Assembly: GCF_000016665.1 (NCBI RefSeq)
Contig: NC_009523.1
Location: forward strand, 2,666,001-2,730,000
Origin: Roseiflexus sp. RS-1
GTDB lineage: Bacteria; Chloroflexota; Chloroflexia; Chloroflexales; Roseiflexaceae
Reading direction: 5' to 3'
Length of the DNA stretch: 64,000 bases
Notes under the pieces: generated by a model
Databases searched by the model: none
Told to the model about the DNA's origin: nothing
The model's input: only the letters and a program-made list of their open reading frames with translations
Translations under genes and position numbers: made by a program
Part shown: positions 3,367-27,390 of the stretch, piece after piece
Position numbering within the stretch: position 1 is the stretch's first letter
Layout of the letters: each line of letters starts with the position of its first letter

Positions 3367-3516
3367 CACCGCGCAACGTACAATCCGCACCGCGCAACGT
3401 ACAATCCGCACCGCGCACCGTGCACCGCGCACCGTGCAACCTTCAACCTTCAACCTTCAACCTTCAACCCCCAACCCCCAACCCCCAACCTTCCACCTTC
3501 CACCTTCCACCTTCAA
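3367..3516. repeat. Compound tandem array (21-bp, 14-bp and 7-bp units)
   Basis: From left to right: two copies of a 21-bp unit (ACCGCGCAACGTACAATCCGC type), two copies of a 14-bp unit (CACCGTGCACCGCG type), then heptanucleotides CCTTCAA (about 4), CCCCCAA (about 3) and CCTTCCA (about 3). The array runs into the 3' end of the ggt gene: its stop and about its last 18-20 codons are repeat-derived. The same CCTTCAA/TTGAAGG heptamer occurs at 11701 and 27346. Confidence 0.85.
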
Positions 3517-5133
3517 CGCCATACCCGCCCCACCGGGATCGGAAGCGCCGCGCAGTGTGCCGTGTTCGGGATCGATGCTGATCACCTGCACCAACCCGAA
3601 TGACCCATAACTCTGCGGCGCACGAAGAACCGGGTGGCGCGCACGCACATCGGCGCAGACATACTCAGGGATGCGATTCTGCACCACAATGCGATCACCC
3701 TGACAATCGAAACGTGGCGCCTGCACTGCTTCCTCCGGACTCATTCCGAAATCGATGATATTCACAATCACCTGGAGCACGCCGGTAATGATGCGGTTTG
3801 CCCCTGGCGCTCCGATAACCAGCACCGGACGATTGCCGGCATACACGATCGTCGGCGACATACCGGTAGCGCGTCCTTTGCGCGGCGCTATCGAGTTGCG
3901 GTGGCCGGGGATCGGGTTGAAATTGATCATCGAGTTGTTGTACATAAACCCAAGCCCCGGCGTGATGACGCCTGACGACATGCCGAGCGAATGGGTCAGC
4001 GCCACGCAGTTGCCGGCATCGTCTACAACACTGACATGGGTGGTGTCGGGAGGACCGCCCGGCAGTGTCTCGACCGTGATGGGGCGTCCGGCGTCGATCT
4101 GCGCGCGCCACTGTGCCGCGCGTTCCTTGCCGGTCAACCACGCTACCGGCACATTATCAAACGCCGGATCGCCAATGTAGCGGTTGCGATCGGCAAACGC
4201 GGCTTTCATTGCCATTGCGACAGTGAATAGATAATCGGCGCTGTTGTGCCCCAGCGATGGCAGATCATACCCTTCGAGAATATTCAACGCCTCAATCAGG
4301 GTCGGACCGCCATGCGGCGCCTGCGACGAGACAATGGTATACCCGCGGTACGTCCCGATGGCAGGCGATTCTTCGCGCAGCGTATACTCAGCCAGATCTT
4401 CAGCCGTGACAAACCCATCGTTGGCGGCAATATCCTCGCTCATACGGCGCGCCAGTTCGCCGTGGTAAAAATCGTCGGGACCGGCTTCCGCCAGGCGGCG
4501 CAGGGTTCGAGCATAATCTGGATTGCGCAGGATCATGCCTTCGTCGTAGGGTCGTCCGTCGGCTGTCAGGTAGATGCGCCGCGCCTCGGCATTCGCCAGA
4601 ATATAGTCGAGTAACGAACATGCTTCCGGGTAGGGAGATCGCATCTTCCAGCGGTTCGCCAGCACACTGTCCACCAGAAAGCCTTCCTCTGCAACCTGTA
4701 TCGCTGGATCGAGCGCCTGCGCCCAACTAATGTTGCCCCACCGTTCGAGGAGTGTCGCCAGTCCCTTGACTGTGCCGGGCGTACAGATTGCCTGGTACCC
4801 GGCATCATTGACCTTGCCGGTGAGAAAATAGCCCCATCCATCCGGATTCATGCCGATGAATCGGTCAACCCACATATCAGGACGAACCCGCGAGCCAGCC
4901 AGCGCCGGAGCATCCAGCAGGATCGTGTGTGTTGTCGGTTCGCCCGCCAGCCGCACAACAGCCAGGGCATAGCCGCCTATGCCACACATTTGAGGGTTGA
5001 CAACCATTTGCACGAAGGCGCAGGTCACGGCGGCATCGATGGCATTGCCGCCCGCCATGAGCACCCGCGCCCCCGCTTCAACCGCCACAGGTTCAGGCGC
5101 TACGATCATTCCTGCCATAGGAGTCGCTTTCAT
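3457..5133 (-). CDS. ggt: Gamma-glutamyltransferase
   Basis: A 558-residue Ntn-hydrolase of the GGT family, which cleaves gamma-glutamyl compounds such as glutathione. The conserved autoprocessing site is visible as PDTTHVSVVD, the second Thr being the expected nucleophile that starts the small subunit. Further family signatures are GGNAIDAAV near the N-terminus, NNSMINFNP, and the GMSPTIV segment. There is no clear signal peptide, unlike periplasmic GGTs, so it may act in the cytoplasm. Oddly, the last ~18 residues (ending in VEG) are encoded by the heptanucleotide array at 3457-3516 and add low-complexity Lys/Val/Gly/Trp sequence that is probably not part of the fold. Confidence 0.93.
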   Translation of the reverse strand: MKATPMAGMIVAPEPVAVEAGARVLMAGGNAIDAAVTCAFVQMVVNPQMCGIGGYALAVVRLAGEPTTHTILLDAPALAGSRVRPDMWVDRFIGMNPDGWGYFLTGKVNDAGYQAICTPGTVKGLATLLERWGNISWAQALDPAIQVAEEGFLVDSVLANRWKMRSPYPEACSLLDYILANAEARRIYLTADGRPYDEGMILRNPDYARTLRRLAEAGPDDFYHGELARRMSEDIAANDGFVTAEDLAEYTLREESPAIGTYRGYTIVSSQAPHGGPTLIEALNILEGYDLPSLGHNSADYLFTVAMAMKAAFADRNRYIGDPAFDNVPVAWLTGKERAAQWRAQIDAGRPITVETLPGGPPDTTHVSVVDDAGNCVALTHSLGMSSGVITPGLGFMYNNSMINFNPIPGHRNSIAPRKGRATGMSPTIVYAGNRPVLVIGAPGANRIITGVLQVIVNIIDFGMSPEEAVQAPRFDCQGDRIVVQNRIPEYVCADVRARHPVLRAPQSYGSFGLVQVISIDPEHGTLRGASDPGGAGMALKVEGGRWKVGGWGLGVEG

Positions 5134-5202: not shown

Positions 5203-6162
5203 ATGACGAGTTTTCGGCGCCTGGCGCCATTCGTTCTTGGCCTGAGCCTGGGAGCAGCGGTCGGTCCGACGGTCTATCGCGCAGCACAGGCGCAGCGTCT
5301 GATGCTGTTCGGCATGCGTCAACCGTTATGGCGCTACCCTGCCGATCTCCGGTTGATGGCGGAGGATGTTGAGTTTCCGTCGCAGGATGGCGTCACGTTG
5401 CGCGGATGGTTCATTCATCGCGTCAACGATGACGGCACGCCTGCGCCAGCGGTGGTTTTTGTTCACGGATGGCCCTGGAATCGCTGTGGGAACCGTGCTG
5501 GCGCCACGGTGCTGCCCGATCGCACGGTTGATTTCCTTGAACCAGCGTCCGCCCTCAGCAACGCCGGGTTTCATGTCCTGCTGTTCGATCTGCGGAACCA
5601 CGGTCTCAGCGATGCCAGTCCGCCGGTGACCTTCGGCGTCAACGAGGCGCGCGATGTCATCGGTGCGGTGACGATGCTTCGCACGCGAAAGGATGTGGAC
5701 GGCGCGCGCATTGGTCTGATCGGATACTCGATGGGGGCGAACGCCGCGCTGCGCGCTGCTCCCGACTGCGCCTCCATCCGCAGCATCGTCGCAGTGCAAC
5801 CGACGAGCGCGAACGTATTTGCGCCGAATGCCGCGCGTGACGTCCTCGGTCCTGCCGGTCCGACTCTGATCCGGATGGGGGGATTGATCCATCGGGCGTT
5901 TGGCGCGCCGCCATTTGCTGCGATTGCGCCTGCCGCCTGGACGCCGCGCCTGCAAGACACCGACGTGCTGTACATCCAGGGCGCTGGCGACCGCTGGGGG
6001 TCGCTCGCCGACGTCGAAGCAATGGCAGCGAACACGCCCCGCGCACGTCCGGTGATCGTCGCGCCGTCGAGCGAACGGTACGGCGGCTACCTGTACGTCG
6101 TCGAGCATCAGGCGGAGATCATCGCGTTCTTCCGTGAGACGCTGGGTGGGGAGAGTGGTTGA
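5203..6162 (+). CDS. Alpha/beta hydrolase with N-terminal membrane anchor
   Basis: A 319-residue protein with a hydrophobic N-terminal segment (about residues 8-25) and an alpha/beta-hydrolase domain. The oxyanion region is VVFVHGW, the nucleophile elbow is GYSMG, and a catalytic His is likely in VVEHQAE near the C-terminus. The start is backed by AGGAGA about 9 nt upstream. It is divergent from ggt across a 69-bp spacer that contains TATACT-like sequence. The gene ends in GGT-TGA-AGG, the same context as the heptanucleotide arrays. Substrate unknown; an esterase or peptidase-like role is possible. Confidence 0.88.
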   Translation: MTSFRRLAPFVLGLSLGAAVGPTVYRAAQAQRLMLFGMRQPLWRYPADLRLMAEDVEFPSQDGVTLRGWFIHRVNDDGTPAPAVVFVHGWPWNRCGNRAGATVLPDRTVDFLEPASALSNAGFHVLLFDLRNHGLSDASPPVTFGVNEARDVIGAVTMLRTRKDVDGARIGLIGYSMGANAALRAAPDCASIRSIVAVQPTSANVFAPNAARDVLGPAGPTLIRMGGLIHRAFGAPPFAAIAPAAWTPRLQDTDVLYIQGAGDRWGSLADVEAMAANTPRARPVIVAPSSERYGGYLYVVEHQAEIIAFFRETLGGESG

Positions 6163-6238
6163 AGGTGCGGGGGTGCGGTGTCGCGCTCCTGACCGGTGAC
6201 ATTCAACCGAAGAGCTGAACATAAAGTGCTGGTGACGT

Positions 6239-6901
6239 CTATTGCTTTACCCCGCCACGGCGTTTAATGCCCAGCCCGTGGAGAAACAAATCCGGCACAT
6301 CAATCCGGTCGTCCGGGCGTGTGCGACAGACGCCCAATTCGAGCAAAAAGTCAAGAAATTCAGCCGGGGTTGTGCGCGGCGGGCGCTGCTTTTCCTGTGG
6401 ATCGTTGCGCCAGGCCGACCAATCCTGGGACAGGATCTCTTCCCACTCCTGGCGAGTCATCGGCACTTCGCGTTGCAACAATCGTCTGGTCAGCGCTTCT
6501 AACCAGGGCATCTCACGACTCTTGAGCAACCGTACATACTCATCCGACACCTGATCCAGCGCGTGGCGCAACGAGGTGGGATGTAGCAGGTGCTGCTCGC
6601 CAGCCCGCGCCGCATCCAATTCCTGGGCAGCCGCATAGCCCCACAGGCTAACCAGATTGCGCGGCGTGATGTGCCCCCGCCCATCACGCAGATGATCCAG
6701 AACCCAGGTAAATGTGCGCCCCTTCTTGATAGTGCATCCCATAAACGGCCCGACAATCTGTTCAATCAGCGGCTGGGCTGCCTCCACATTGGGCAGACGA
6801 GGGATCGAACCCAACCGTTCGTCGTGGTCAAAACCCAACCCGGCGTTCCGACAGTAGGTCAGCCAGGACTCGCTACTATTGGCCATGCGTTTGATGAGCA
6901 T
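6239..6901 (-). CDS. C-terminal part of a P-loop ATPase, cut off by an in-frame TAG
   Basis: 220 residues if translation restarts at ATG 6901. It is in the same frame as the upstream P-loop ATPase, separated only by a TAG at 6923-6925 and seven codons, so it is best read as the C-terminal half of one ~494-residue protein. The segment is helical and charged, without its own catalytic motif, and probably forms the C-terminal regulatory or winged-helix part. No good ribosome binding site was noted before 6901, which suggests the product is not made independently unless the stop is read through. Confidence 0.7.
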   Translation of the reverse strand: MLIKRMANSSESWLTYCRNAGLGFDHDERLGSIPRLPNVEAAQPLIEQIVGPFMGCTIKKGRTFTWVLDHLRDGRGHITPRNLVSLWGYAAAQELDAARAGEQHLLHPTSLRHALDQVSDEYVRLLKSREMPWLEALTRRLLQREVPMTRQEWEEILSQDWSAWRNDPQEKQRPPRTTPAEFLDFLLELGVCRTRPDDRIDVPDLFLHGLGIKRRGGVKQ

Positions 6902-6922
6902 GGCGTACAGGTTGCGATCAGT

Positions 6923-7723
6923 CTAGGTCAATTCCACGCGACTGGCCGCCAGTTTGGCCAGGTCGGCGGCAAAGATGTGGGTATTGGTGTATAAATCGCT
7001 GCGCAAAAAGATTTTGGGCTGTATGCGTTGCCAGCGGCGCGCGTATTCAGACCAAAAGGTCAACAGCCCCCGAATCAGGGCAGCCATCAGTTCCCAATCC
7101 ACCCCACCCAGGGTATCCAGTTCATCGTAATTGATGAACACCCAGCGATTTTCTCTTTTCAGGCGAGTATCCAGCGCATCTAACGCCTTGATGACTGTGG
7201 CGCGCTGGACTTGCAACGTGTCGTAAATCAGTTTGACTTCCGTTGCGGCCAGTTCAAACAGCGGTTGAAGATCGCTCACGTTAAGTTCCTGGCGCAACAA
7301 CCGCGCCAGATACGCCAGCCACAGATCGGCCAGCGCCTGCGCATTGTCGCATCCAGCAGGAAGGTGTTGAACGAACTGACGCAACGTGCCAGGATCCGGA
7401 AAGGCGGCGCCCATTGGGTAGCCTGCCAGCCAGGAAGCCTTCTCCTCTGCGAGGGTGTGAAGAAACAAGTCGCGCCCTGGCAGCATGCGGATCATTTTGG
7501 CAGACAACTGCTGCTCGACGGCGGCTTTGAAGAGCATGCTTTTGCCAGCGCCGTGATAGCCGATGATCAGGTTGACGTTTGGCTCAAAGACGCGCAGATG
7601 TTCGGCGACCGGGTAAAAGGCGCGTTGAAACTGCTTCCCACTTTCCAATTCGGCGCTGGAGGCGCGCCCCATCTCGCGCAGTTCTGTCAGTAATGTTTGT
7701 CGTTGGGCATCGGTTAATGTCAT
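6923..7723 (-). CDS. P-loop ATPase, N-terminal part, truncated by nonsense codon
   Basis: 266 residues with Walker A GYHGAGKS at residues 55-62 and Walker B WVFINYDELD at about 194-203; a later KIFLRSDLY segment looks like a sensor region. The pattern recalls the Sll1717-type P-loop ATPases (resemblance only). Its ATG overlaps the stop of the ParA-like gene (ATGA), so it is translationally coupled. It ends at TAG (6923-6925), and the frame continues open for 227 more codons after it. A Trp codon TGG changed to TAG fits the flanking sequence (VELT, stop, TDRNLY). Confidence 0.75.
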   Translation of the reverse strand: MTLTDAQRQTLLTELREMGRASSAELESGKQFQRAFYPVAEHLRVFEPNVNLIIGYHGAGKSMLFKAAVEQQLSAKMIRMLPGRDLFLHTLAEEKASWLAGYPMGAAFPDPGTLRQFVQHLPAGCDNAQALADLWLAYLARLLRQELNVSDLQPLFELAATEVKLIYDTLQVQRATVIKALDALDTRLKRENRWVFINYDELDTLGGVDWELMAALIRGLLTFWSEYARRWQRIQPKIFLRSDLYTNTHIFAADLAKLAASRVELT

Positions 7724-9042
7724 GTTGACCCCCTGAGAAACCGCGCGGTGATCCGTTCGCCGAGTTTCCGATAATCTTCTGCTGCCAGACCATAGTCAAC
7801 CAGGTCCTCCAGGCGGGTAAAGAAAGCTATCCGTTCGCTGTAGAACAAGGAAACAGGAACATGTGGCGCATCACGGCTCTCCATATCACGAAGATACCAG
7901 AAAGAGTCCTCTGCTGGATCGTCAGGGTCAGGCAGATAATACTCTTCTTCAAAGGTCTTCTCGGCGCGCCGCAGGAATTCTGCTTCCGCCAGTCGGGCCG
8001 TTTGGGGATTGGCCGGCGCCATGCTATGGATCAACAGGCACTCTGCCTGGGGGAAGTTGCGCCGGACACGTTCTGCACCCAGGCGGCGCACCGCCAGACG
8101 CAACCCACGCCAATTGGACTCAGACGTGCCCCCAAAGAGCAGATTCAGATGCGCCAGCCCCCCAAAGACAAAACCGGTGGCTTCCGAGAGACCAGCACGC
8201 GCATCGAGCAGGATCCAATCCGGGTGCAGTTCGTTACGAATATGTAGGAGCAGAGTTTCCAGAGGATGTTTCCCCTCGGTTGGCGGAGCGAAATCCAGCC
8301 GCGCCAGTTTAGCAAGATACCCCTCATCGAAATTTCCGGCCGGGAAGACGAGGATCTCCCCCGAACCGATCACCGCCGGTTGACTGACCCGGAAATAGTA
8401 ATCGCGCAGGTCGAGATGCTCGCCAAGCAGGGGTTGTTCAAGCCAGTAATCCACCACGCCAGCCTGCGCTACAGCGGGATCGCCGAGCAAAACGCCGACG
8501 CCTGGCGCCGCCAGATCGAGATCAACCACAACCACGCGCTCACCAGCATGCGCGCGCTGCGCGGCGAAAATCGCCAGTGCCGTGCTGCGACCGGCGCCGC
8601 CTTTGAAGGCGTAGAACGAGAGGATTGGCGGACCGCCTGCGTCGGCTTCTGGATCGGTCGGCCAGGGTGGACCGGGCAGTGGGCGGAGCCAGACGCTCAG
8701 GCTGCGATGGCGTTCGTTGATGCGGATGGAGACGCTCGCTGCGTGCGGTGCGCCCTCCTCCCACAGCGACTCCAGCAGTGCGCGATCGGCGTTCGAGGTT
8801 TGAGCAGCGGCAATCCACAAACCGCCCCAGAACGGGCCGGTCGCAGCGCTGAGCCGACCTTCCAGCTCGTTGCGTTGGTCTGACGACGGAGCATCGGCAA
8901 ACCACAGCGCCACACGGATGCGGGCAAAAATGTCGGGTGAAAGCAGGGCCCGTTCGACCCGCTGCTGGCGGACAAGATCTTCCAACACGTGGAGCGCCGC
9001 TTGCCGCGCCTGGTCAAAGTGGCGTATGGGAGCACTATTCAT
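7720..9042 (-). CDS. ParA/MinD-like ATPase with KGGAGR motif
   Basis: A 440-residue protein. An N-terminal region of ~130 residues of unknown fold precedes a SIMIBI-type ATPase core. The deviant Walker A is FKGGAGRST (K147, R152 in place of the usual Lys), followed by VVVDLDLAAPGVG and WILLDARAGLSE, the expected Walker A' and switch-like elements. ATG 9042 overlaps the stop of the HEPN gene (ATGA), and the stop overlaps the next ATPase in the same way. The longer reading frame upstream lies inside the HEPN gene and was not used. The Arg in place of Lys marks the KGGVGR-type group often found in bacterial conflict or regulatory operons (inference); no partition role is indicated. Confidence 0.85.
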   Translation of the reverse strand: MNSAPIRHFDQARQAALHVLEDLVRQQRVERALLSPDIFARIRVALWFADAPSSDQRNELEGRLSAATGPFWGGLWIAAAQTSNADRALLESLWEEGAPHAASVSIRINERHRSLSVWLRPLPGPPWPTDPEADAGGPPILSFYAFKGGAGRSTALAIFAAQRAHAGERVVVVDLDLAAPGVGVLLGDPAVAQAGVVDYWLEQPLLGEHLDLRDYYFRVSQPAVIGSGEILVFPAGNFDEGYLAKLARLDFAPPTEGKHPLETLLLHIRNELHPDWILLDARAGLSEATGFVFGGLAHLNLLFGGTSESNWRGLRLAVRRLGAERVRRNFPQAECLLIHSMAPANPQTARLAEAEFLRRAEKTFEEEYYLPDPDDPAEDSFWYLRDMESRDAPHVPVSLFYSERIAFFTRLEDLVDYGLAAEDYRKLGERITARFLRGST

Positions 9043-9470
9043 CGAATCACTCCATCCATCCACATCTGCTGCACCGTTTGTCGGTACACACGTTCGGCTT
9101 CTGTGAGCCAGTCCTGCGCCTGCTGCCATGTGAGGTCGCCCGGCGCGCGGTAGCGCATGGTCTCTTTCCAACCGGCAGGCGGGTTGGCGTAGGCGATGCC
9201 CGGTGGCGGATTGGGGATGTAACGCGCCGTGTGCGGACTGCCGCCGGTTGCCAGCGCCGCAACCTGGACGCTGATCGCGCTCAGGTCGTGCCCCCACCGC
9301 GGAGCGCTGCCAATCTGCAACAGCGTTTTGAGCGCACACTCAACAACATAGCCTGCGTGATACCCGGAGCCGTCGTAGCGGGCGGTTTCCAGCAACGCCT
9401 GCGCATCGTCCAGGTGTTTACGCGCCGCTTCGGGATAATCATCGCCATTGGGTTGACGCAAGTTAGACAT
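9039..9470 (-). CDS. HEPN domain protein
   Basis: 143 residues, all helical. The HEPN-like signature is visible in the segments ARKHLDDAQALLETARY, HAGYVVECALKTLL and GHDLSAI. ATG 9470 is preceded by AGAGGGG at 4 nt; the longer frame would run through the tRNA terminator and was rejected. I do not see a clear R-x4-6-H ribonuclease motif, so it may be an adaptor rather than an active RNase. It is first in a three-gene operon with 4-bp overlaps, and its start lies 125 bp beyond the 3' end of tRNA-Asn. Confidence 0.75.
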   Translation of the reverse strand: MSNLRQPNGDDYPEAARKHLDDAQALLETARYDGSGYHAGYVVECALKTLLQIGSAPRWGHDLSAISVQVAALATGGSPHTARYIPNPPPGIAYANPPAGWKETMRYRAPGDLTWQQAQDWLTEAERVYRQTVQQMWMDGVIR

Positions 9471-9540
9471 AGCCCCTCTTGCGAAAATTATACTGCTACC
9501 AGACCATCTGCGGACGTGACACCAGGGAAGATAGATTTGA

Positions 9541-9571
9541 ATGGCAATAAAATACCCGGCGGTGTGCCGGG
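9541..9571 (-). terminator. Rho-independent terminator of tRNA-Asn
   Basis: Stem CCCGGC/GCCGGG (9566-9571 with 9555-9560) with a 5-nt loop, followed on the minus strand by TATTTTATT. It lies 24 nt after the CCA of the tRNA gene. Confidence 0.75.
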
Positions 9572-9594
9572 CATTCATTGGATCGTGTTATTAC

Positions 9595-9669
9595 TGGCTC
9601 CCCGACCAGGATTCGAACCTGGAACCTACTGATTAACAGTCAGCCGCTCTACCGTTGAGCTATCGGGGA
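9595..9669 (-). tRNA. tRNA-Asn (anticodon GTT)
   Basis: 75 nt including an encoded CCA. The acceptor stem is TCCCCGA (5') with TCGGGGA (3'), discriminator G. The T arm contains GGTTCGAATCC, and the anticodon loop reads CTGTTAATC with anticodon GTT, which decodes Asn. The D arm contains AGCTCAACGGTAGAGC. All four arms fold as expected. Confidence 0.97.
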
Positions 9670-9802: not shown

Positions 9803-11704
9803 TTGACCACACAAGACGCTACGACCGGCATGCCCCCAATGATCGGACGCTGCCTGACGATTCCACAATGGCTCGACTATGTCGCCCGCTATCAGTTCGG
9901 GCAGTTGACTCCATCGAAGGTGGTGCTCCACCACACCTGGCGCCCGACGGTGCAACAGTGGCGCGGGCTTGCGTCTATGCAGGGCATGCAACGCTACTAT
10001 GCTGGCAAGGGATGGACTTCCGCGCCCCACATTTATGTTGCCCCCGACGGAATCTGGCTGTTTACGCCGATGAAAGACATCGGCATCCATGCCGGTCCCG
10101 GCAATGGCAGCCTGAAAGCAGGATGGTACTCGATCGGCGTCGAAATGGTTGGCGACTACGACCGTGAGCGACCGTCCGGCGCGGTATGGGATGGAACGAA
10201 AGCAGTACTCGGCGGGCTTTCACGTCGTCTGGGGATCGCCCCCGCGACACTGATCGCTTTCCACCGCGACTACAGCAAGAAGAGTTGTCCGGGATGGGCC
10301 GTCACCAAAGAATGGGTGATCGGCGAGGTCAACGCCTGGCTGAACAATGTCGCGCCGCCGCCCCCTCCGCCACCTGGTCCGATCGGTCCGATCCCGCCTG
10401 ATGTCGAAGAACTCGCCGAGGCGTTGCTCGACCAGAGTTACGCCCGTCGCGGTGAGGGGTACAACAGCAGTTGGGCGTTTCATCAGTTTGCGGTTGAGAA
10501 CAATCTGGGCTTCCCAACCGCCAAAAGTCAGCGGTTGACGCACGGCGGGAAGACGTACAATTACCAGCCGTTCGCGCGGGATACGCTCTTCTGTGAAGTG
10601 CCGAACTGGGGTGAGGTGCAACGACTCTCACAATTGCTCGCCGGTTCCATTCCGCCTCCCGGAACCCTCGGGCGTGCATTGCTCGATGCGACCTACGCGA
10701 CTGGCGGTTCGCCGTTTCGCCCCGATTGGGCATTTCACCAGTACGCGATTGCCGGTCAAACGCTAGGTCCGCCGCTGGAACCGAGCAAAACACTGGTTGT
10801 GGATGGGGTTTCCTACAGTTACCAGGTCTTCGCCACCGATACGATTTTCAACCGCGGCACAGAATGGCAAAACATTCAGCGTCTCAGCGCCCTTGCCAAC
10901 ACCACAAACCCGACGCAGGCGAAGGTGCGCGATGCGCTGCTCAACGCCACCTACGCCGCTGCAGGACAGCAGTACCGTCCCGATTGGGCGTTCCATCAAC
11001 TGGCGCGTACATGGAACCTGGGTGCACCGCTCGGCAAAACCGATCCGATCACGGTTGGCGGCAAGCAGTACAACGTTCAGGTGTACGCTACCGATACGCT
11101 CTACAACATCGTGCCGAACTGGAGCGACGTGAAACGCCTCAGCGCCATTTTCAGTCCGCAGCAGACGCTGCTTGCTGCGCCGACGCCGGTTGCGGCGCTC
11201 CTTTCGCCCGGCGCGGTTCTCGCGCCGGAGTGGGACACATTCTACATCCGGCGGTTTACAGTCGCCGGGCGCGCGCCGAGCGCGTATGGCAGTCGCAGCG
11301 GCTCGAAGATCCGCCTGATCGTGCTGCATGGCGATGAAGGACCGGCGCTCCGGTCGCTTGAACAGATGGCGATGCCCGGCGCAGCCTCGATGACGCACTA
11401 CTATGTCGCCGCCGACGGCGCGATCTATCAGTTGCTCGATGATGAGTTTGCCGCGTTTCACAGCGGTATCGCGTACTGGAATGGCGCGCGCCGCAACATC
11501 AATCGCAGCAGTATTGGCATTGCCCTCGAGCGCCCGAACCATGGGTATACCGACGCATCACGCCGCGCTCTGGCGTGGCTGATCGCTCGTCTGCGCGCAC
11601 GGTACGACATCCCGCCATCCGGCGTTGTTCGTTGGGGAGATATGGCGCCGTCTGCGGCGAACGATCTCGCCGATCTTCCCAGGGATTGGTATCGAGGGGA
11701 TTGA
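9803..11704 (+). CDS. N-acetylmuramoyl-L-alanine amidase with two amidase domains and three internal repeats
   Basis: 633 residues from a TTG start at 9803, chosen because AGAGG lies 7 nt upstream and the promoter at 9720-9749 excludes earlier starts; ATG 9829 is an alternative. The N-terminal amidase_2/PGRP-like domain has candidate zinc ligands H43 (VVLHHT), H154 and C162 (the FHRDYS...SCPG segment). A poly-Pro linker (about residues 178-190) leads to three ~75-residue repeats, each with WAFHQ, a tyrosine-rich middle and a DT-[LI]-[FY]...RLS ending. A second amidase-like domain closes the protein, but where a zinc His is expected it reads VRWGDMAP, so it looks inactive. No signal peptide is obvious. 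The stop codon lies in the first unit of a heptanucleotide array. Confidence 0.88.
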   Translation: MTTQDATTGMPPMIGRCLTIPQWLDYVARYQFGQLTPSKVVLHHTWRPTVQQWRGLASMQGMQRYYAGKGWTSAPHIYVAPDGIWLFTPMKDIGIHAGPGNGSLKAGWYSIGVEMVGDYDRERPSGAVWDGTKAVLGGLSRRLGIAPATLIAFHRDYSKKSCPGWAVTKEWVIGEVNAWLNNVAPPPPPPPGPIGPIPPDVEELAEALLDQSYARRGEGYNSSWAFHQFAVENNLGFPTAKSQRLTHGGKTYNYQPFARDTLFCEVPNWGEVQRLSQLLAGSIPPPGTLGRALLDATYATGGSPFRPDWAFHQYAIAGQTLGPPLEPSKTLVVDGVSYSYQVFATDTIFNRGTEWQNIQRLSALANTTNPTQAKVRDALLNATYAAAGQQYRPDWAFHQLARTWNLGAPLGKTDPITVGGKQYNVQVYATDTLYNIVPNWSDVKRLSAIFSPQQTLLAAPTPVAALLSPGAVLAPEWDTFYIRRFTVAGRAPSAYGSRSGSKIRLIVLHGDEGPALRSLEQMAMPGAASMTHYYVAADGAIYQLLDDEFAAFHSGIAYWNGARRNINRSSIGIALERPNHGYTDASRRALAWLIARLRARYDIPPSGVVRWGDMAPSAANDLADLPRDWYRGD

Positions 11705-11756
11705 AGGTTGAAGGTTGAAGGTTGAAGGTTGAAGGTTGAAGGTTGAAGGTTGAAAG
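11701..11756. repeat. TTGAAGG heptanucleotide array (8 units)
   Basis: Seven perfect TTGAAGG units and one TTGAAAG in direct tandem, beginning at the amidase stop codon and ending 51 bp before the CHAT gene start. The array is the reverse complement of the CCTTCAA units at 3367-3516 and 27346-27390. Confidence 0.95.
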
Positions 11757-11807
11757 TGCGAAGGTTGAACGTTCAACGCTGAAAAGGCGAGAAGAAGGAG
11801 CAACCCT

Positions 11808-14234
11808 GTGCCTGTTGATTTCAACAAACTCTCTCTGGCGCCGATCAACGCCTGCGTTGTCGCTGAAGAGACGGCATCGCTCTGGCAGATCTATGCGATG
11901 CTGCCGCCGAAGCGCGATGATCGTCTCTACCGCTTCGTCGTCACGCCGCTTGCCGATGGGACGTTCATTGTTGCACGCTGGATCGAGGTCGAAGAGATCG
12001 TCCATCGGTTGCTGCGCTACGATGATGTGCGCGACTGGACGCTCGTCGATCTGGCGAACTACACACCGCCGTCCGACTACGTCGAGCCGGACGACCATAT
12101 TGCCGCGAAACTGGCAACCATTCCGCTTGCGAACCTGATCCAGCGCCTGAAACCTGCGCCCGCTCTGGATCGCCAGGCGCACACCACCCACCAGGCGCGC
12201 ACCGCACGCGACGATCATCCCGGCAGGCGCGTTGTTGTGCTGGACAACAGCGTCATCTACGGCGTTGTCTTTGAAGAACCACTCATGTCTGGCGATGTCG
12301 CTGCCGATCCATTTGCGCAACCAGCACTCAGAATGGCTGCTCCGAGCGACGAACCGACATATCTGCCTGAAACGGCTGACATGATATATGCGGAAGCGGC
12401 GCCTCCTGAGTCGCAGGTTGATGGTATTGGGGGAGAAACGGCAGACGTGAGCGAACCGGAGCGCTCCGCTTCAGCCTTGCTGAACACTCTCGGCGGTTCA
12501 GGGTCGCAGGATGATCGGGTGTTCAATCTCTGGATCGAACAGCGGCTCGTGCAGGAAGCGGAGATTGTCGGCGGCGGCAGGACCCTGACGCGCGTCGTGC
12601 CGCCCAACGAGGCGCTGAGCGTTGGCGGTATGTACACGGTCAACGTGAATGTCGCCGCGCCGCTTGCCAGCGCCCGCGTGCGATCAGGAGGCGTCGAGCA
12701 GGCGGAAGAGATGACAACCGCACCACAGATCGAGGTGGATGTGCGTCTGGTCGCCGATGTCGGATACTTCAAGGTGTACGGCATTCCGCAACAGAAGATC
12801 ATCTTCCCGCGCGGCGGCGTCTCGAAGAACCTCGCCAGTTTCACAATCGAACCGCTGAAGCAGGGGGTTGGCGAGATTACCGCAATCCTTTCACTCAATC
12901 AAAAGCCATTTCAGAAGATCGTTGCGCAGGTGGCGATTGGCGATACAGCCCTGGCAGCGTTGCCTGCCGAACCGGTGCGCGCCAGCGGGCTGACCCTCGC
13001 CGCCGCCGCAACGACGATGAGCAATCCTCGCGCCTATCCCCCGGAGACCGATGCAAGCCTGGTTATTATTCGCGAGACTACCGGCTATACCTTCCTCCTT
13101 TCGCTGGGAAGCGGGTACACCGTTGCGCGCCTGAACCTGGCGGAAAAAGAGATCGTCGATGCAATCCGCCGGGCGCGCGCCGGTTTTCTCGACAAAATCG
13201 TCAAAAAACTCGATCCATCACGCAACGTCTATGCCTATCAACTCAAAGATACGACGATCCCGGAGGCGATCCATCAAGAGGTGCTACGCGATCTGCGGCA
13301 GATCGGCGATCTGCTGTTCCGCGCGCTGTTCTTCGCCCCCGGCAGCGGCGATCAGGGGCGCGAGATGGGGCATTTGTTGCGCGCCACCACCGCCGAACGC
13401 GAACTGCGCATCAACGTGATTGCTGAACGCTTCGCCTTCCCCTGGTCGCTGATCTATGCCCTGCCCTTCAAGCCGACCGATCCGGTCGATCCGAACGGCT
13501 TCTGGGGGTACCGCCACATTATCGAGTACACACCACAATTCAGCGCCCGGCAACCAACCGCATTCGCACCCGAAATCAGGGCAGGAGACCGGCTCCATTT
13601 TGGTTTCGTCTTCGATCAGACGATCGACGCGCAGTTCAATGCGCCGATTATCGGCGAGCAACGTCAGACTCTGCCCGGCATCGGCGGGGTGACCGTCACC
13701 GAATACGATACCCGTGATAAGTTCCTCGATCTCTTGAGCCGTTCCCAGGACGTGCCCCACATTATCTATTTCTACGGGCATGCCGTCAGTCGTTCACCGG
13801 GAGAGAAGGACGCAGCCACCGGCATCGAGTATGGGTTGGGCGACTCCTACCTGAGCATTAACGGCGAAGCGGTGACGCTCGACGAGATGAACCTGTACGC
13901 CGGACTTGACCTCGACCGGTTCGACAGCGCGCCGCTGGTGATCCTCAACGCCTGTGAGAGCGCCGAATTATCGCCAGAACTGTACAATGGTCTCGTTCCC
14001 TACCTGATCGGGCGTGGAGCGCGTGGCGTCATCGGCACGGAAGTGTTGATGCCCGCCTACTTCGCCGCCGAGTTCGCGCCTGTCCTGCTGCGCCGCTTTG
14101 CTGCTGGCAACACGCGCCTCGGCGATCTGCTCCGCGATCTGCGGCGCGAGTATTTGCGCGAGAAACGGAATGTGTTGCCGTTGATCTATGCTCTGTACAG
14201 CAACGCAGAACTGATCGTCACACGTAACGGGTAA
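11808..14234 (+). CDS. CHAT-domain (caspase-like) protease protein
   Basis: 808 residues, GTG start with AAGGAG about 9 nt upstream. The C-terminal ~230 residues form a CHAT domain: catalytic His in FYGHAVS (H658) and Cys in LNACESAE (C716), followed by RGARGVIGTE as expected. The N-terminal ~110 residues are a small alpha/beta domain of unknown type. Between ~245 and 390 a beta-rich segment looks Ig-like, and the region after it is helical. CHAT proteases act as effectors cleaving protein partners in conflict or programmed-death pathways; the target here is unknown. The gene is 6 bp from the following HTH/NTPase gene, so the two are probably coexpressed. Confidence 0.87.
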   Translation: MPVDFNKLSLAPINACVVAEETASLWQIYAMLPPKRDDRLYRFVVTPLADGTFIVARWIEVEEIVHRLLRYDDVRDWTLVDLANYTPPSDYVEPDDHIAAKLATIPLANLIQRLKPAPALDRQAHTTHQARTARDDHPGRRVVVLDNSVIYGVVFEEPLMSGDVAADPFAQPALRMAAPSDEPTYLPETADMIYAEAAPPESQVDGIGGETADVSEPERSASALLNTLGGSGSQDDRVFNLWIEQRLVQEAEIVGGGRTLTRVVPPNEALSVGGMYTVNVNVAAPLASARVRSGGVEQAEEMTTAPQIEVDVRLVADVGYFKVYGIPQQKIIFPRGGVSKNLASFTIEPLKQGVGEITAILSLNQKPFQKIVAQVAIGDTALAALPAEPVRASGLTLAAAATTMSNPRAYPPETDASLVIIRETTGYTFLLSLGSGYTVARLNLAEKEIVDAIRRARAGFLDKIVKKLDPSRNVYAYQLKDTTIPEAIHQEVLRDLRQIGDLLFRALFFAPGSGDQGREMGHLLRATTAERELRINVIAERFAFPWSLIYALPFKPTDPVDPNGFWGYRHIIEYTPQFSARQPTAFAPEIRAGDRLHFGFVFDQTIDAQFNAPIIGEQRQTLPGIGGVTVTEYDTRDKFLDLLSRSQDVPHIIYFYGHAVSRSPGEKDAATGIEYGLGDSYLSINGEAVTLDEMNLYAGLDLDRFDSAPLVILNACESAELSPELYNGLVPYLIGRGARGVIGTEVLMPAYFAAEFAPVLLRRFAAGNTRLGDLLRDLRREYLREKRNVLPLIYALYSNAELIVTRNG

Positions 14235-14240
14235 CCGGTC

Positions 14241-15824
14241 ATGAAAACCGATCTCGAACTTCCCCGCCTCACCAGTGCTGATCTTGCTGAGCGCTTCGGC
14301 AATGATGAGGCGGCGTTGCGACGATACCGGATGCTTGTGGCACTGCTGCGTGAAAGACGTTCACCGGGAGAGGTGGCGCGCACCTTTGGCGTCAGCCGCG
14401 AAAGCCTGCGTCGGTTGCGCGAAGCGTTCCGGCGTGGCGGTCTGGCAGCGCTGAAGAGTCGCAAGCGCGGTGGAGGACATCTTGTGCGCGGCAGCCCGCT
14501 GGCGCGTGCCTTGCGCCAGGAACTCGCCGCTGAACCAGGGTTACCTGCGAATGTGCTCTGGAAGAGAGTGCAGGCACGGTTGCGCGATGAAGGAGTCGTC
14601 GATGTTCCGCGCAGCACCTTTTATCGACTGCTGGCGCGCCTGCGTGATGAAGAGAGCGACACCGGATCGAGCAGTGCCACTGTGCGTCTGGTGCGTGAGG
14701 CGCTTGGCTCGCTTCCTGAAGACCCGCCGCTTACGTTGGGACGTAGCGACCTGGCGAAGTTGGTGCTGGCGGACGAGACCGATGTGCAGCAACGTGGGCG
14801 TCGCTTGCAGACGGCACTGCGCGCAGCGATCGAACAACTCCGCCCATCAGACGATGCCGGTCCGGTTCTGAACGATCCGCGCTGGCGACACTACCTGATC
14901 ATCGCTGGTGAATACGAAGCAGGAGAGACGCGCACCGATCTCCAGGAAATGCTGGCATTGAGTGCCAGCACCTATAGTCGCGCGAAACGCGAGGCGCTGG
15001 AACGACTGGCAGCGCTGTTGCCGTCCGCAATCGAAGCATTACCGCCGCTGGCGCCACCGGTTCACCTCTACACCCCTCCGTCCGTATCGGTTCCCGGTTA
15101 CGAAGACGAGATCGACCTGTACGTGTCCTCCTTGCGACGTGACGGTCTGGCGCTCATCTGGGGCGATCCGGACGAGGCGTACAACCTGGCTGCCACGCTT
15201 GCAGCGCATTTGCAGAGCCGGGGGCAGAAGGTCATCTGGCACGCAGCTGCACCGCTCGACACCGAACCACGACCGGGATTGCGTCTGTTGCAAACCCTTG
15301 CAGCTGCGCTGGCAGCGGAAGGCGATGATGAACTGTGGCGGTACCTGGCAGCGCCGGACGCGACCCCGCTCGTCTGGCATCTCGACATACTCGCCAATAC
15401 GATTGGCGGGCGACGCTGGGCGGTTGTTGTGGCGAACACGCACTGGCTGACCGATAGCGACGCCATTCAAACGCTCGACGTATTGACAACGGCATATGAA
15501 CAGCGCGAGATCCGCCTGACGCTCGCCGGGCGCGATCTGCCGCTGTGGGCGGATACAGAGCGCTGGCCCCCGCTGCCGGGTTCGACCGATCAGGCGGCTG
15601 TCAGAGAATTTCTTCAGCGCCTGACGCGGCGCCCATCAACGGCCAGCGCGTTGCCCCTTTCCGATGTGGTGCGCGAACGCACGATGCAGTTGCTGGAAGC
15701 ATTGCCGATTGATCAGGTCGCCTTCCTTTCGCCCGATGAACGCGACCGCCTGATCGCGGCGCTCGTCCCGATTGAGCGGTTGCTGGCAACGCTTCGTGGT
15801 GCAGCCGGTCATATACCGCCGTGA
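14241..15824 (+). CDS. Transposase-type HTH protein with degenerate STAND-like NTPase region
   Basis: 527 residues. The N-terminal ~140 residues carry two helix-turn-helix units of the homeodomain/transposase type (VARTFGVSRESLRRLREAF and a second with RSTFYRLLARL). There is no DDE catalytic core after them. The middle is helical. Residues ~290-460 resemble a STAND/AAA NTPase: the strand LALIWGDPDEAYNLA sits where a P-loop would be but lacks GK[ST], and VVVANTHWL may stand for Walker B. The protein could be a regulator or sensor that recruits or restrains the neighbouring CHAT protease. Assignment is by pattern only. Confidence 0.65.
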   Translation: MKTDLELPRLTSADLAERFGNDEAALRRYRMLVALLRERRSPGEVARTFGVSRESLRRLREAFRRGGLAALKSRKRGGGHLVRGSPLARALRQELAAEPGLPANVLWKRVQARLRDEGVVDVPRSTFYRLLARLRDEESDTGSSSATVRLVREALGSLPEDPPLTLGRSDLAKLVLADETDVQQRGRRLQTALRAAIEQLRPSDDAGPVLNDPRWRHYLIIAGEYEAGETRTDLQEMLALSASTYSRAKREALERLAALLPSAIEALPPLAPPVHLYTPPSVSVPGYEDEIDLYVSSLRRDGLALIWGDPDEAYNLAATLAAHLQSRGQKVIWHAAAPLDTEPRPGLRLLQTLAAALAAEGDDELWRYLAAPDATPLVWHLDILANTIGGRRWAVVVANTHWLTDSDAIQTLDVLTTAYEQREIRLTLAGRDLPLWADTERWPPLPGSTDQAAVREFLQRLTRRPSTASALPLSDVVRERTMQLLEALPIDQVAFLSPDERDRLIAALVPIERLLATLRGAAGHIPP

Positions 15825-27247: not shown

Positions 27248-27345
27248 CCCGCGTATTGTACCATACCGCGTTTTGTGCGAAGGCACAGGGTTTGCCCTGT
27301 GCCTGGGACGGATCAACCAGGAATGGCGCGGGTGTCGCCGGAAAA

Positions 27346-27390
27346 CCTTCAACCTTCCAACCTTCAACCTTCCAACCTTCAACCTTCAAC
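27346..27390. repeat. CCTTCAA/CCTTCCAA array
   Basis: About six units alternating between the 7-mer CCTTCAA and the 8-mer CCTTCCAA. It covers the end of the oxidoreductase gene and its stop codon (27379-27381) and lies between it and the methyltransferase gene. Confidence 0.9.

Follow-up and report, generated by a model that had tools for sequence, protein, structure and literature searches.

In HEPN-T proteins such as AF0298, and in AbiV, the histidine of the canonical Rx4-6H motif is missing, while the arginine is kept, a conserved histidine lies between helices 2 and 3 and an acidic residue is found in helix 2; an alternative active site has been suggested for HEPN proteins of this type, as set out in parts of PMC3710099. 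AbiV is a ribonuclease (RNase) in a two-component antiphage system according to the title of PDB entry 9bj6. Candidate systems are listed as PDC entries of the PADLOC database, which are described in part of PMC12988326, where a 2024 preprint by Payne et al. is cited, as putative systems obtained by a guilt-by-embedding approach and mostly lacking experimental validation. Here we analyzed a three-gene operon, with genes termed A, B and C in the order of their transcription, in a 64,000-nucleotide stretch of Roseiflexus sp. RS-1 (contig NC_009523.1, positions 2,666,001-2,730,000 of the forward strand), which is called the window below and whose numbering is used throughout. We consider it reasonably probable that this operon belongs, as a damaged copy, to PDC-M28, a candidate antiviral system of PADLOC-DB 2.0.0, and that intact members act in defence as an ATPase-gated HEPN RNase.

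As far as could be found, PDC-M28 is a listed but uncharacterised candidate. No publication naming it turned up in the open literature searched, the scope of which does not extend to bioRxiv preprints, and none was found there for KGGVGR or Sll1717, the names of two ATPase families considered below. A survey of BREX diversity mentions stand-alone HEPN genes near BREX, and the three-gene module is not described in the parts of that survey drawn on here (PMC12839542).

The operon and its match to PDC-M28

The operon comprises the following features.

9039..9470, minus strand: gene A (PDC-M28A), HEPN-T protein of 143 amino acids, predicted RNase effector (PF05168, PDC-M28A, alignments, model resembling HEPN structures)
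7720..9042, minus strand: gene B (PDC-M28B), ParA/MinD-like KGGAGR ATPase of 440 amino acids, Arg152 replacing the Walker A lysine (AAA_KGGVGR, PDC-M28B)
6239..7723, minus strand: gene C (PDC-M28C), one 494-codon frame for a predicted Orc/Cdc6-STAND-type AAA+ ATPase, interrupted by TAG (frame reading, relatives, model of an intact relative's protein)
6923..7723, minus strand: N-terminal half of C, 266 amino acids, with Walker A GYHGAGKS and Walker B (PDC-M28C, 1.9e-20)
6920..6922, minus strand: in-frame TAG, codon 267 of C (sense codons there in 6 aligned relatives)
6239..6901, minus strand: C-terminal half of C, 220 amino acids, with its own ATG shortly after the stop (PDC-M28C, 4.5e-34, profile positions 296-477)

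An earlier reading made from the DNA letters only (the sequence-only reading) had described three genes joined by ATGA overlaps at both junctions, and both 4-bp overlaps were confirmed, at 9042-9039 for A/B and at 7723-7720 for B/C. In addition to the two halves of C, PADLOC profiles matched A (PDC-M28A, 3.6e-14) and B (PDC-M28B, 5.9e-49), and the three models matched 31/31 A, 31/31 B and 31/31 C proteins in our family alignments. Because all three genes match PDC-M28 A, B and C, the kind of system is already catalogued; the earlier proposal of a candidate conflict system holds as a reading, but its subject is a listed kind and the window copy is broken in C.

The third gene, for which a P-loop NTPase had been claimed, is indeed present from 7723, but it has no clean end, since a TAG at 6922-6920 splits a 494-codon frame that is otherwise open to 6239 into products of 266 and 220 amino acids. 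The position of codon 267 is a sense codon in 6/6 relatives aligned to the window C (alignment A1). Reading 6239-6901 as a fourth gene was rejected, because its frame, its PDC-M28C match and the read-through in relatives identify it as the second half of C. Since C is cut in two, the window copy is probably inactive or impaired, although translation may restart at the ATG that closely follows the stop, so that the split C would work as two polypeptides.

The HEPN protein and the two ATPases

The HEPN assignment of A was upheld by a match to the Pfam HEPN family PF05168 (35.7 bits against a cut-off of 22). At E 0.001, PF05168 matched 7/31 family members and was the sole HEPN family of Pfam that did so. 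Among 34 A sequences, R106 was conserved in 34, H61 in 33 (the remaining one being cut off), E44 and Y107 in 33 each, and K48 and W101 in 32 each, and in the 31-row alignment of A the residues E44, K48, H61, R106 and Y107 were invariant. No conserved histidine was present 4-6 residues after R106 in the 34 sequences. The earlier remark that the HEPN protein lacks an obvious RNase motif is therefore right as regards the canonical Rx4-6H, although A has another set of invariant residues. Assignment of A to the MAE_18760 family of HEPN proteins was rejected, because only PF05168 matched and Rx4-6H is absent.

The residues kept in A agree with the alternative site of AF0298 and AbiV: the arginine is retained, H61 lies between the predicted helices 32-53 and 64-73, and E44 lies in helix 32-53. 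In a model of A built from 15 rows (pLDDT 71.8), helix 32-53 contains both E44 and K48 and is followed by H61, while the R106 stretch is poorly predicted. When the model was used as a Foldseek query, 1wol, 1o3u, 1ufb and 2hsb (AF0298) came top with E 0.09-0.36, sacsin and AbiV being among the later matches. VIA-align Z values of 9.9 (1ufb), 9.6 (2hsb) and 7.8 (AbiV, 9bj7) are only suggestive for a helical protein, so that the HEPN assignment of A rests on the Pfam match. A sequence search of solved structures with A returned nothing credible. Judged by its conserved residues, A is probably a HEPN-T RNase effector that uses an AF0298/AbiV-type alternative site, which revises the earlier view that the effector was unclear.

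Gene B had been described as a SIMIBI ATPase with arginine in place of the Walker A lysine, and the NCBIfam family AAA_KGGVGR (NF047398) matched it at 138.4 bits (cut-off 90), in agreement with that description. The motif K147-G-G-x-G-R152, D174, D280 and other residues were kept in 31/31 B proteins. The change from lysine to arginine in the P-loop suggests that B binds nucleotide but hydrolyses it in an altered way or not at all; MinD/ParA-like domains of other conflict systems have been predicted to be inactive, as described in part of PMC7159879.

The family ATPase_Sll1717 (NF047389) matched the N-terminal half of the split C at 52.8 bits, below its cut-off of 75, and did not match the C-terminal half. 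GxxGxGK and D-x-LD are invariant in the C family. We modelled C from the intact relative L038 (pLDDT 84.2, pTM 0.85), and in a Foldseek search with this model BrxC (9zll, 9zdx) and Cdc6 (1fnn) were within the first four rows, BrxC being first. VIA-align Z was 13.2 to Cdc6 (1fnn), an ORC chain (7jgr) and PABY2304 (2qen), and about 12 to a plant NLR and CED-4. Because the model resembles BrxC, Cdc6, ORC, PABY2304, NLR and CED-4, C fits best among the AAA+ ATPases of the Orc/Cdc6-STAND group. A sequence search of solved structures with C gave weak P-loop matches only, and profile searches recognised no nuclease domain in B or C.

Distribution, BREX-2 context and decay in Roseiflexus

The order A-B-C was found in 7 Chloroflexota loci besides the window (L036-L038, L040-L042 and L047, where A is cut by the fetched stretch), in 12 plasmid loci from Pseudomonadota, Actinomycetota and Cyanobacteriota (L055-L066, with C overrunning the record end in L066) and in 12 viral-contig loci (L070-L080 and L094, of which L074 and L076 are nearly identical). 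The 31-row alignments omit L047, in which A is cut off, L076, which nearly duplicates L074, and L095, which is on one contig with L075; L007 and L008 (A trimmed, B fused) were left out of alignments A4 and A5 and kept in alignment A6. A start codon with which the genes would overlap by 1 or 4 bases was available at 27/33 A-B and 17/30 B-C junctions, all nearest gaps being within 28 bases, and natural B-C fusions occur in seven loci (L007, L008, L049, L051, L068, L101 and L103). The dN/dS ratios (nonsynonymous to synonymous substitution) for window A, B and C were 0.19, 0.15 and 0.18 against L036, 0.13-0.14 against L037 and 0.14 against L038 (B only), values that speak for past constraint only, because synonymous sites are near saturation. 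Since the same gene order, in most cases with overlapping junctions, is seen in different phyla and dN/dS is 0.13-0.19 wherever whole genes allowed its computation, the operon is more than a chance association.

On plasmids, 28 records matched B of L040, 20 matched C of L040 and 14 matched both, so the genes are not mostly separate there; mostly separate genes would have counted against the sequence-only reading. All 12 of these 14 records that were examined are A-B-C, and the other two, from Burkholderia glumae, have adjacent matches. Six of the 14 B-only records were examined: L101 and L103 hold a HEPN gene and a B-C fusion, L102, L104 and L105 an MqsA-like gene and another KGGxGR ATPase, and L100 a TIR protein. 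In another record, L106, a mercury-resistance transposon adjoins a HEPN gene and a short B. In one set of 16 viral-contig loci, 11 were A-B-C; of the others, L068 has A with a B-C fusion, L069, L081 and L082 have different KGGxGR proteins, and L067 has a partial B. Thus A, B and C mostly travel together, with exceptions; the earlier claim that the genes belong together stands to that extent, but other KGGxGR ATPases have other partners. Separately, in L069, L081, L102, L104 and L105 a gene for an MqsA-antitoxin-like helix-turn-helix protein precedes a KGGxGR ATPase with a long C-terminus, a different two-gene module of plasmids and viral contigs, and on a Sinorhizobium plasmid (L100:4394-7190) the TIR protein adjoins a KGGxGR-TIR fusion. 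Stand-alone relatives of C were also seen on Streptomyces and Kitasatospora plasmids (L096-L099).

Full-length C was present in 4/400 Chloroflexota genomes, RS-1 included, together with two remnants and four distant matches. Phages searched with L040 B gave no match, and neither did E. coli genomes searched at the DNA level with the operon of an Enterobacter. A family search with PDLC04559 in 158 genomes had matches in all 14 control genomes, likely caused by ordinary ParA/MinD proteins, and we relied on matches only if they were full-length or very strong.

Three plasmids carry A-B-C inside BREX-2. In L056 and L057 it lies between pglX and the genes for a PglY-like protein and pglZ, with BREX-2 on both sides, and in L060 the order is pglW-A-B-C-pglX; the name PglY was assigned from place and size, the record label being 'phage resistance protein'. 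Tyrosine recombinases adjoin other A-B-C loci on plasmids. In the window, pglW, pglX, pglY and pglZ are not among the operon's neighbours, which are genes for an alpha/beta hydrolase, tRNA-Asn and an amidase. Two of these neighbours delimit a site that varies within the genus.

9595..9669, minus strand: tRNA-Asn(gtt), adjoining the operon, one end of the variable site (site comparison within the genus)
5203-6162: alpha/beta hydrolase gene, other end of the variable site

Between them, at 6163-9594, the site holds the operon, a remnant or an unrelated 1.3-2.0 kb depending on the Roseiflexus species. In the sister Roseiflexus (G065, L091; the same site as L039), 2,205 bases are missing between B and C, and A contains a premature stop and a deletion of 4 bases, with Gln encoded at the position of H61. 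The hydrolase-to-tRNA-Asn site of two other Roseiflexus (L092, L093) holds 1.3 and 2.0 kb and no operon. Elsewhere in the order, one genome (L107) has C and only the end of B, and another (L108) only the end of C. Such gain and decay would be usual for costly accessory genes, and the Roseiflexus copies can be viewed as a defence candidate in decay, with one stop in the window and a 2.2-kb deletion plus loss of the conserved histidine in the sister species. The RS-1 genome also contains a second A-B-C (L040:7520-10682, at 2.5555-2.5587 Mb), which is intact and diverged, with proteins about 24-29% identical and an unusual Walker A, GARGVRKS, in C.

Elsewhere in the window, a gene for a CHAT-domain (caspase-like) protein and a gene whose N-terminal helix-turn-helix is like that of IS630 transposases lie 6 bases apart at 11808-15824, possibly another regulated protease module; among PADLOC profiles the CHAT protein had no match, and its partner matched mad1 alone and weakly. 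The heptamer CAACCTT, or its complement, is repeated in arrays at 3437-3517, 11701-11773 and 27344-27390, and two of these arrays bracket the region around the operon.

Proposed mechanism, alternatives and known systems

In intact PDC-M28 systems, A would be a HEPN-T ribonuclease with an alternative site made up of a glutamate and a lysine in helix 2, a histidine after helix 2 and a later Arg-Tyr pair. The Orc/Cdc6-STAND-like ATPase C would sense invading nucleic acid or a phage product, and the KGGxGR ParA-like protein B would be the nucleotide-dependent coupler, keeping A inactive until C is triggered and then setting it free. Released A would then cleave RNA, so that translation or phage growth is stopped. 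The proposal builds on what was observed: the order of the genes and their overlaps, the fusion of B to C in some loci, residues that are invariant in the family, the predicted folds, the position inside BREX-2 and the break in C. If it is true, a listed candidate gains a concrete mechanism, in which a HEPN enzyme devoid of the textbook motif is placed under two different ATPases, one of them ParA-like with an altered Walker A; H61, R106 and E44 of A, K147 and R152 of B and the Walker A of C are the residues we name for mutation.

Several points weigh against this mechanism. For every member, RNase activity, sensing by C, gating by B and the antiviral outcome are inferred, as is the choice of which protein is sensor and which inhibitor. 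The model of A is of moderate confidence, with residues 106-108 below pLDDT 50, and lends no support to a clustering of H61 and R106. Six of the 20 plasmid records with C have no B match, which limits the earlier claim of linkage, and the four of these six that were examined (L096-L099) lack A and B; L043, conversely, holds A-B without C. On the supporting side, the L057 PglY matches 7/72,556 plasmid records, and three of these also belong to the 14 records that match both B and C (hypergeometric P about 2e-10), but this test was post hoc, its query was taken from one of the three loci and plasmid records are not independent. Finally, no flanking defence system was recognised in 9 Chloroflexota loci (the window, L036-L039 and L040-L043; some on short contigs), where defence profiles were run on two window genes only.

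An immune or conflict module of several components, as the sequence-only reading had supposed, is supported by the PDC-M28 matches, the conserved order on plasmids, viral contigs and chromosomes, the B-C fusions and the BREX-2 embedding. An alternative is a toxin-antitoxin-like module, in which B would directly neutralise the HEPN toxin A, C would be accessory, and the main role would be maintenance of a replicon or island and not phage sensing. We regard this as unlikely: C is kept in 12/12 plasmid A-B-C loci examined and is fused to B in several loci, and BREX-2 embedding fits defence better, even though parts of Anantharaman et al. (PMC3710099) make the same proposal for MAE_18760 HEPN and ParA/Soj pairs, an A-B locus without C exists (L043), the module occurs on plasmids and MqsA-antitoxin-like genes precede related KGGxGR ATPases.

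It is still more doubtful that A is a non-catalytic HEPN protein, an RNA- or protein-binding adaptor, with C acting on DNA as in BREX or as ORC-like ATPases do. The absence of the canonical Rx4-6H from all aligned A and the resemblance of C to BrxC and Orc/Cdc6 would suit such an arrangement. Against it, the invariance of the E, K, H and R-Y residues points to retention of an active or binding site in A, neither B nor C had a recognisable nuclease domain, and the title of PDB 9bj6 describes as an RNase AbiV, a protein of the same fold that likewise lacks the canonical motif. A role in partition or other housekeeping, with a ParA-like ATPase and its partners, is very improbable. B does belong to the ParA/MinD superfamily, but full-length C is patchy (4/400 Chloroflexota genomes), the operon is absent from the syntenic site in two Roseiflexus, the Walker A lysine is replaced in 31/31 B, and loss and decay are tolerated; a ParA partition function was rejected because of the patchy distribution and the altered Walker A. 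We retain the ATPase-gated HEPN RNase as the preferred reading. Tentatively, it could be extended to KGGxGR ParA-like proteins in general, which would form a control hub common to bacterial immune systems and combine with different effectors (alternative-site HEPN RNases, TIR proteins, MqsA-like regulators and STAND modules). PDC-M28 would then be the branch where a non-canonical HEPN RNase is triggered by an Orc/Cdc6-STAND ATPase, in many cases fused to the hub, both alone and as a BREX-2 insert.

Compared with known systems, A shares its predicted fold with AbiV/AF0298-type HEPN proteins (VIA-align Z 7.6-9.6) as well as the loss of the Rx4-6H histidine, the kept arginine and another conserved histidine, but it matches no Pfam HEPN family besides PF05168 and is tied to two ATPases. 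The MAE_18760 HEPN and ParA/Soj pairs likewise place a HEPN gene beside a ParA/MinD-like ATPase gene and have been suggested, in the passages of Anantharaman et al. 2013 (PMC3710099) on these pairs, to be a toxin and its regulator, whereas A is a PF05168/HEPN-T protein without Rx4-6H, B has the KGGxGR motif and C adds a third gene, for another ATPase. PrrC and RloC resemble the proposed mechanism as NTPase-controlled HEPN RNases, PrrC being tied to a restriction system as noted in part of PMC3710099, but in PDC-M28 the components are encoded separately, the ATPases are of the ParA and ORC types where those systems have an ABC ATPase, and the canonical HEPN motif is absent. BrxC and BrxD, the Orc/Cdc6-type ATPases of BREX, are linked to C by the BrxC structures that head its Foldseek list and by A-B-C inside BREX-2 on three plasmids, although identity is about 12% and C is found mostly outside BREX and is not a BREX core gene. 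The closest counterpart is PDC-M28 itself, the A, B and C models of which match the window genes in the right order and for which BREX-2 embedding was found here independently, while the window copy differs in that a stop splits gene C and not all three genes are intact. Beyond that listing, our analysis newly predicts an alternative HEPN site in A and places C in the Orc/Cdc6-STAND group; also new are the findings that B and C are fused in some loci, that KGGxGR ATPases swap partners and that the window copy is broken.

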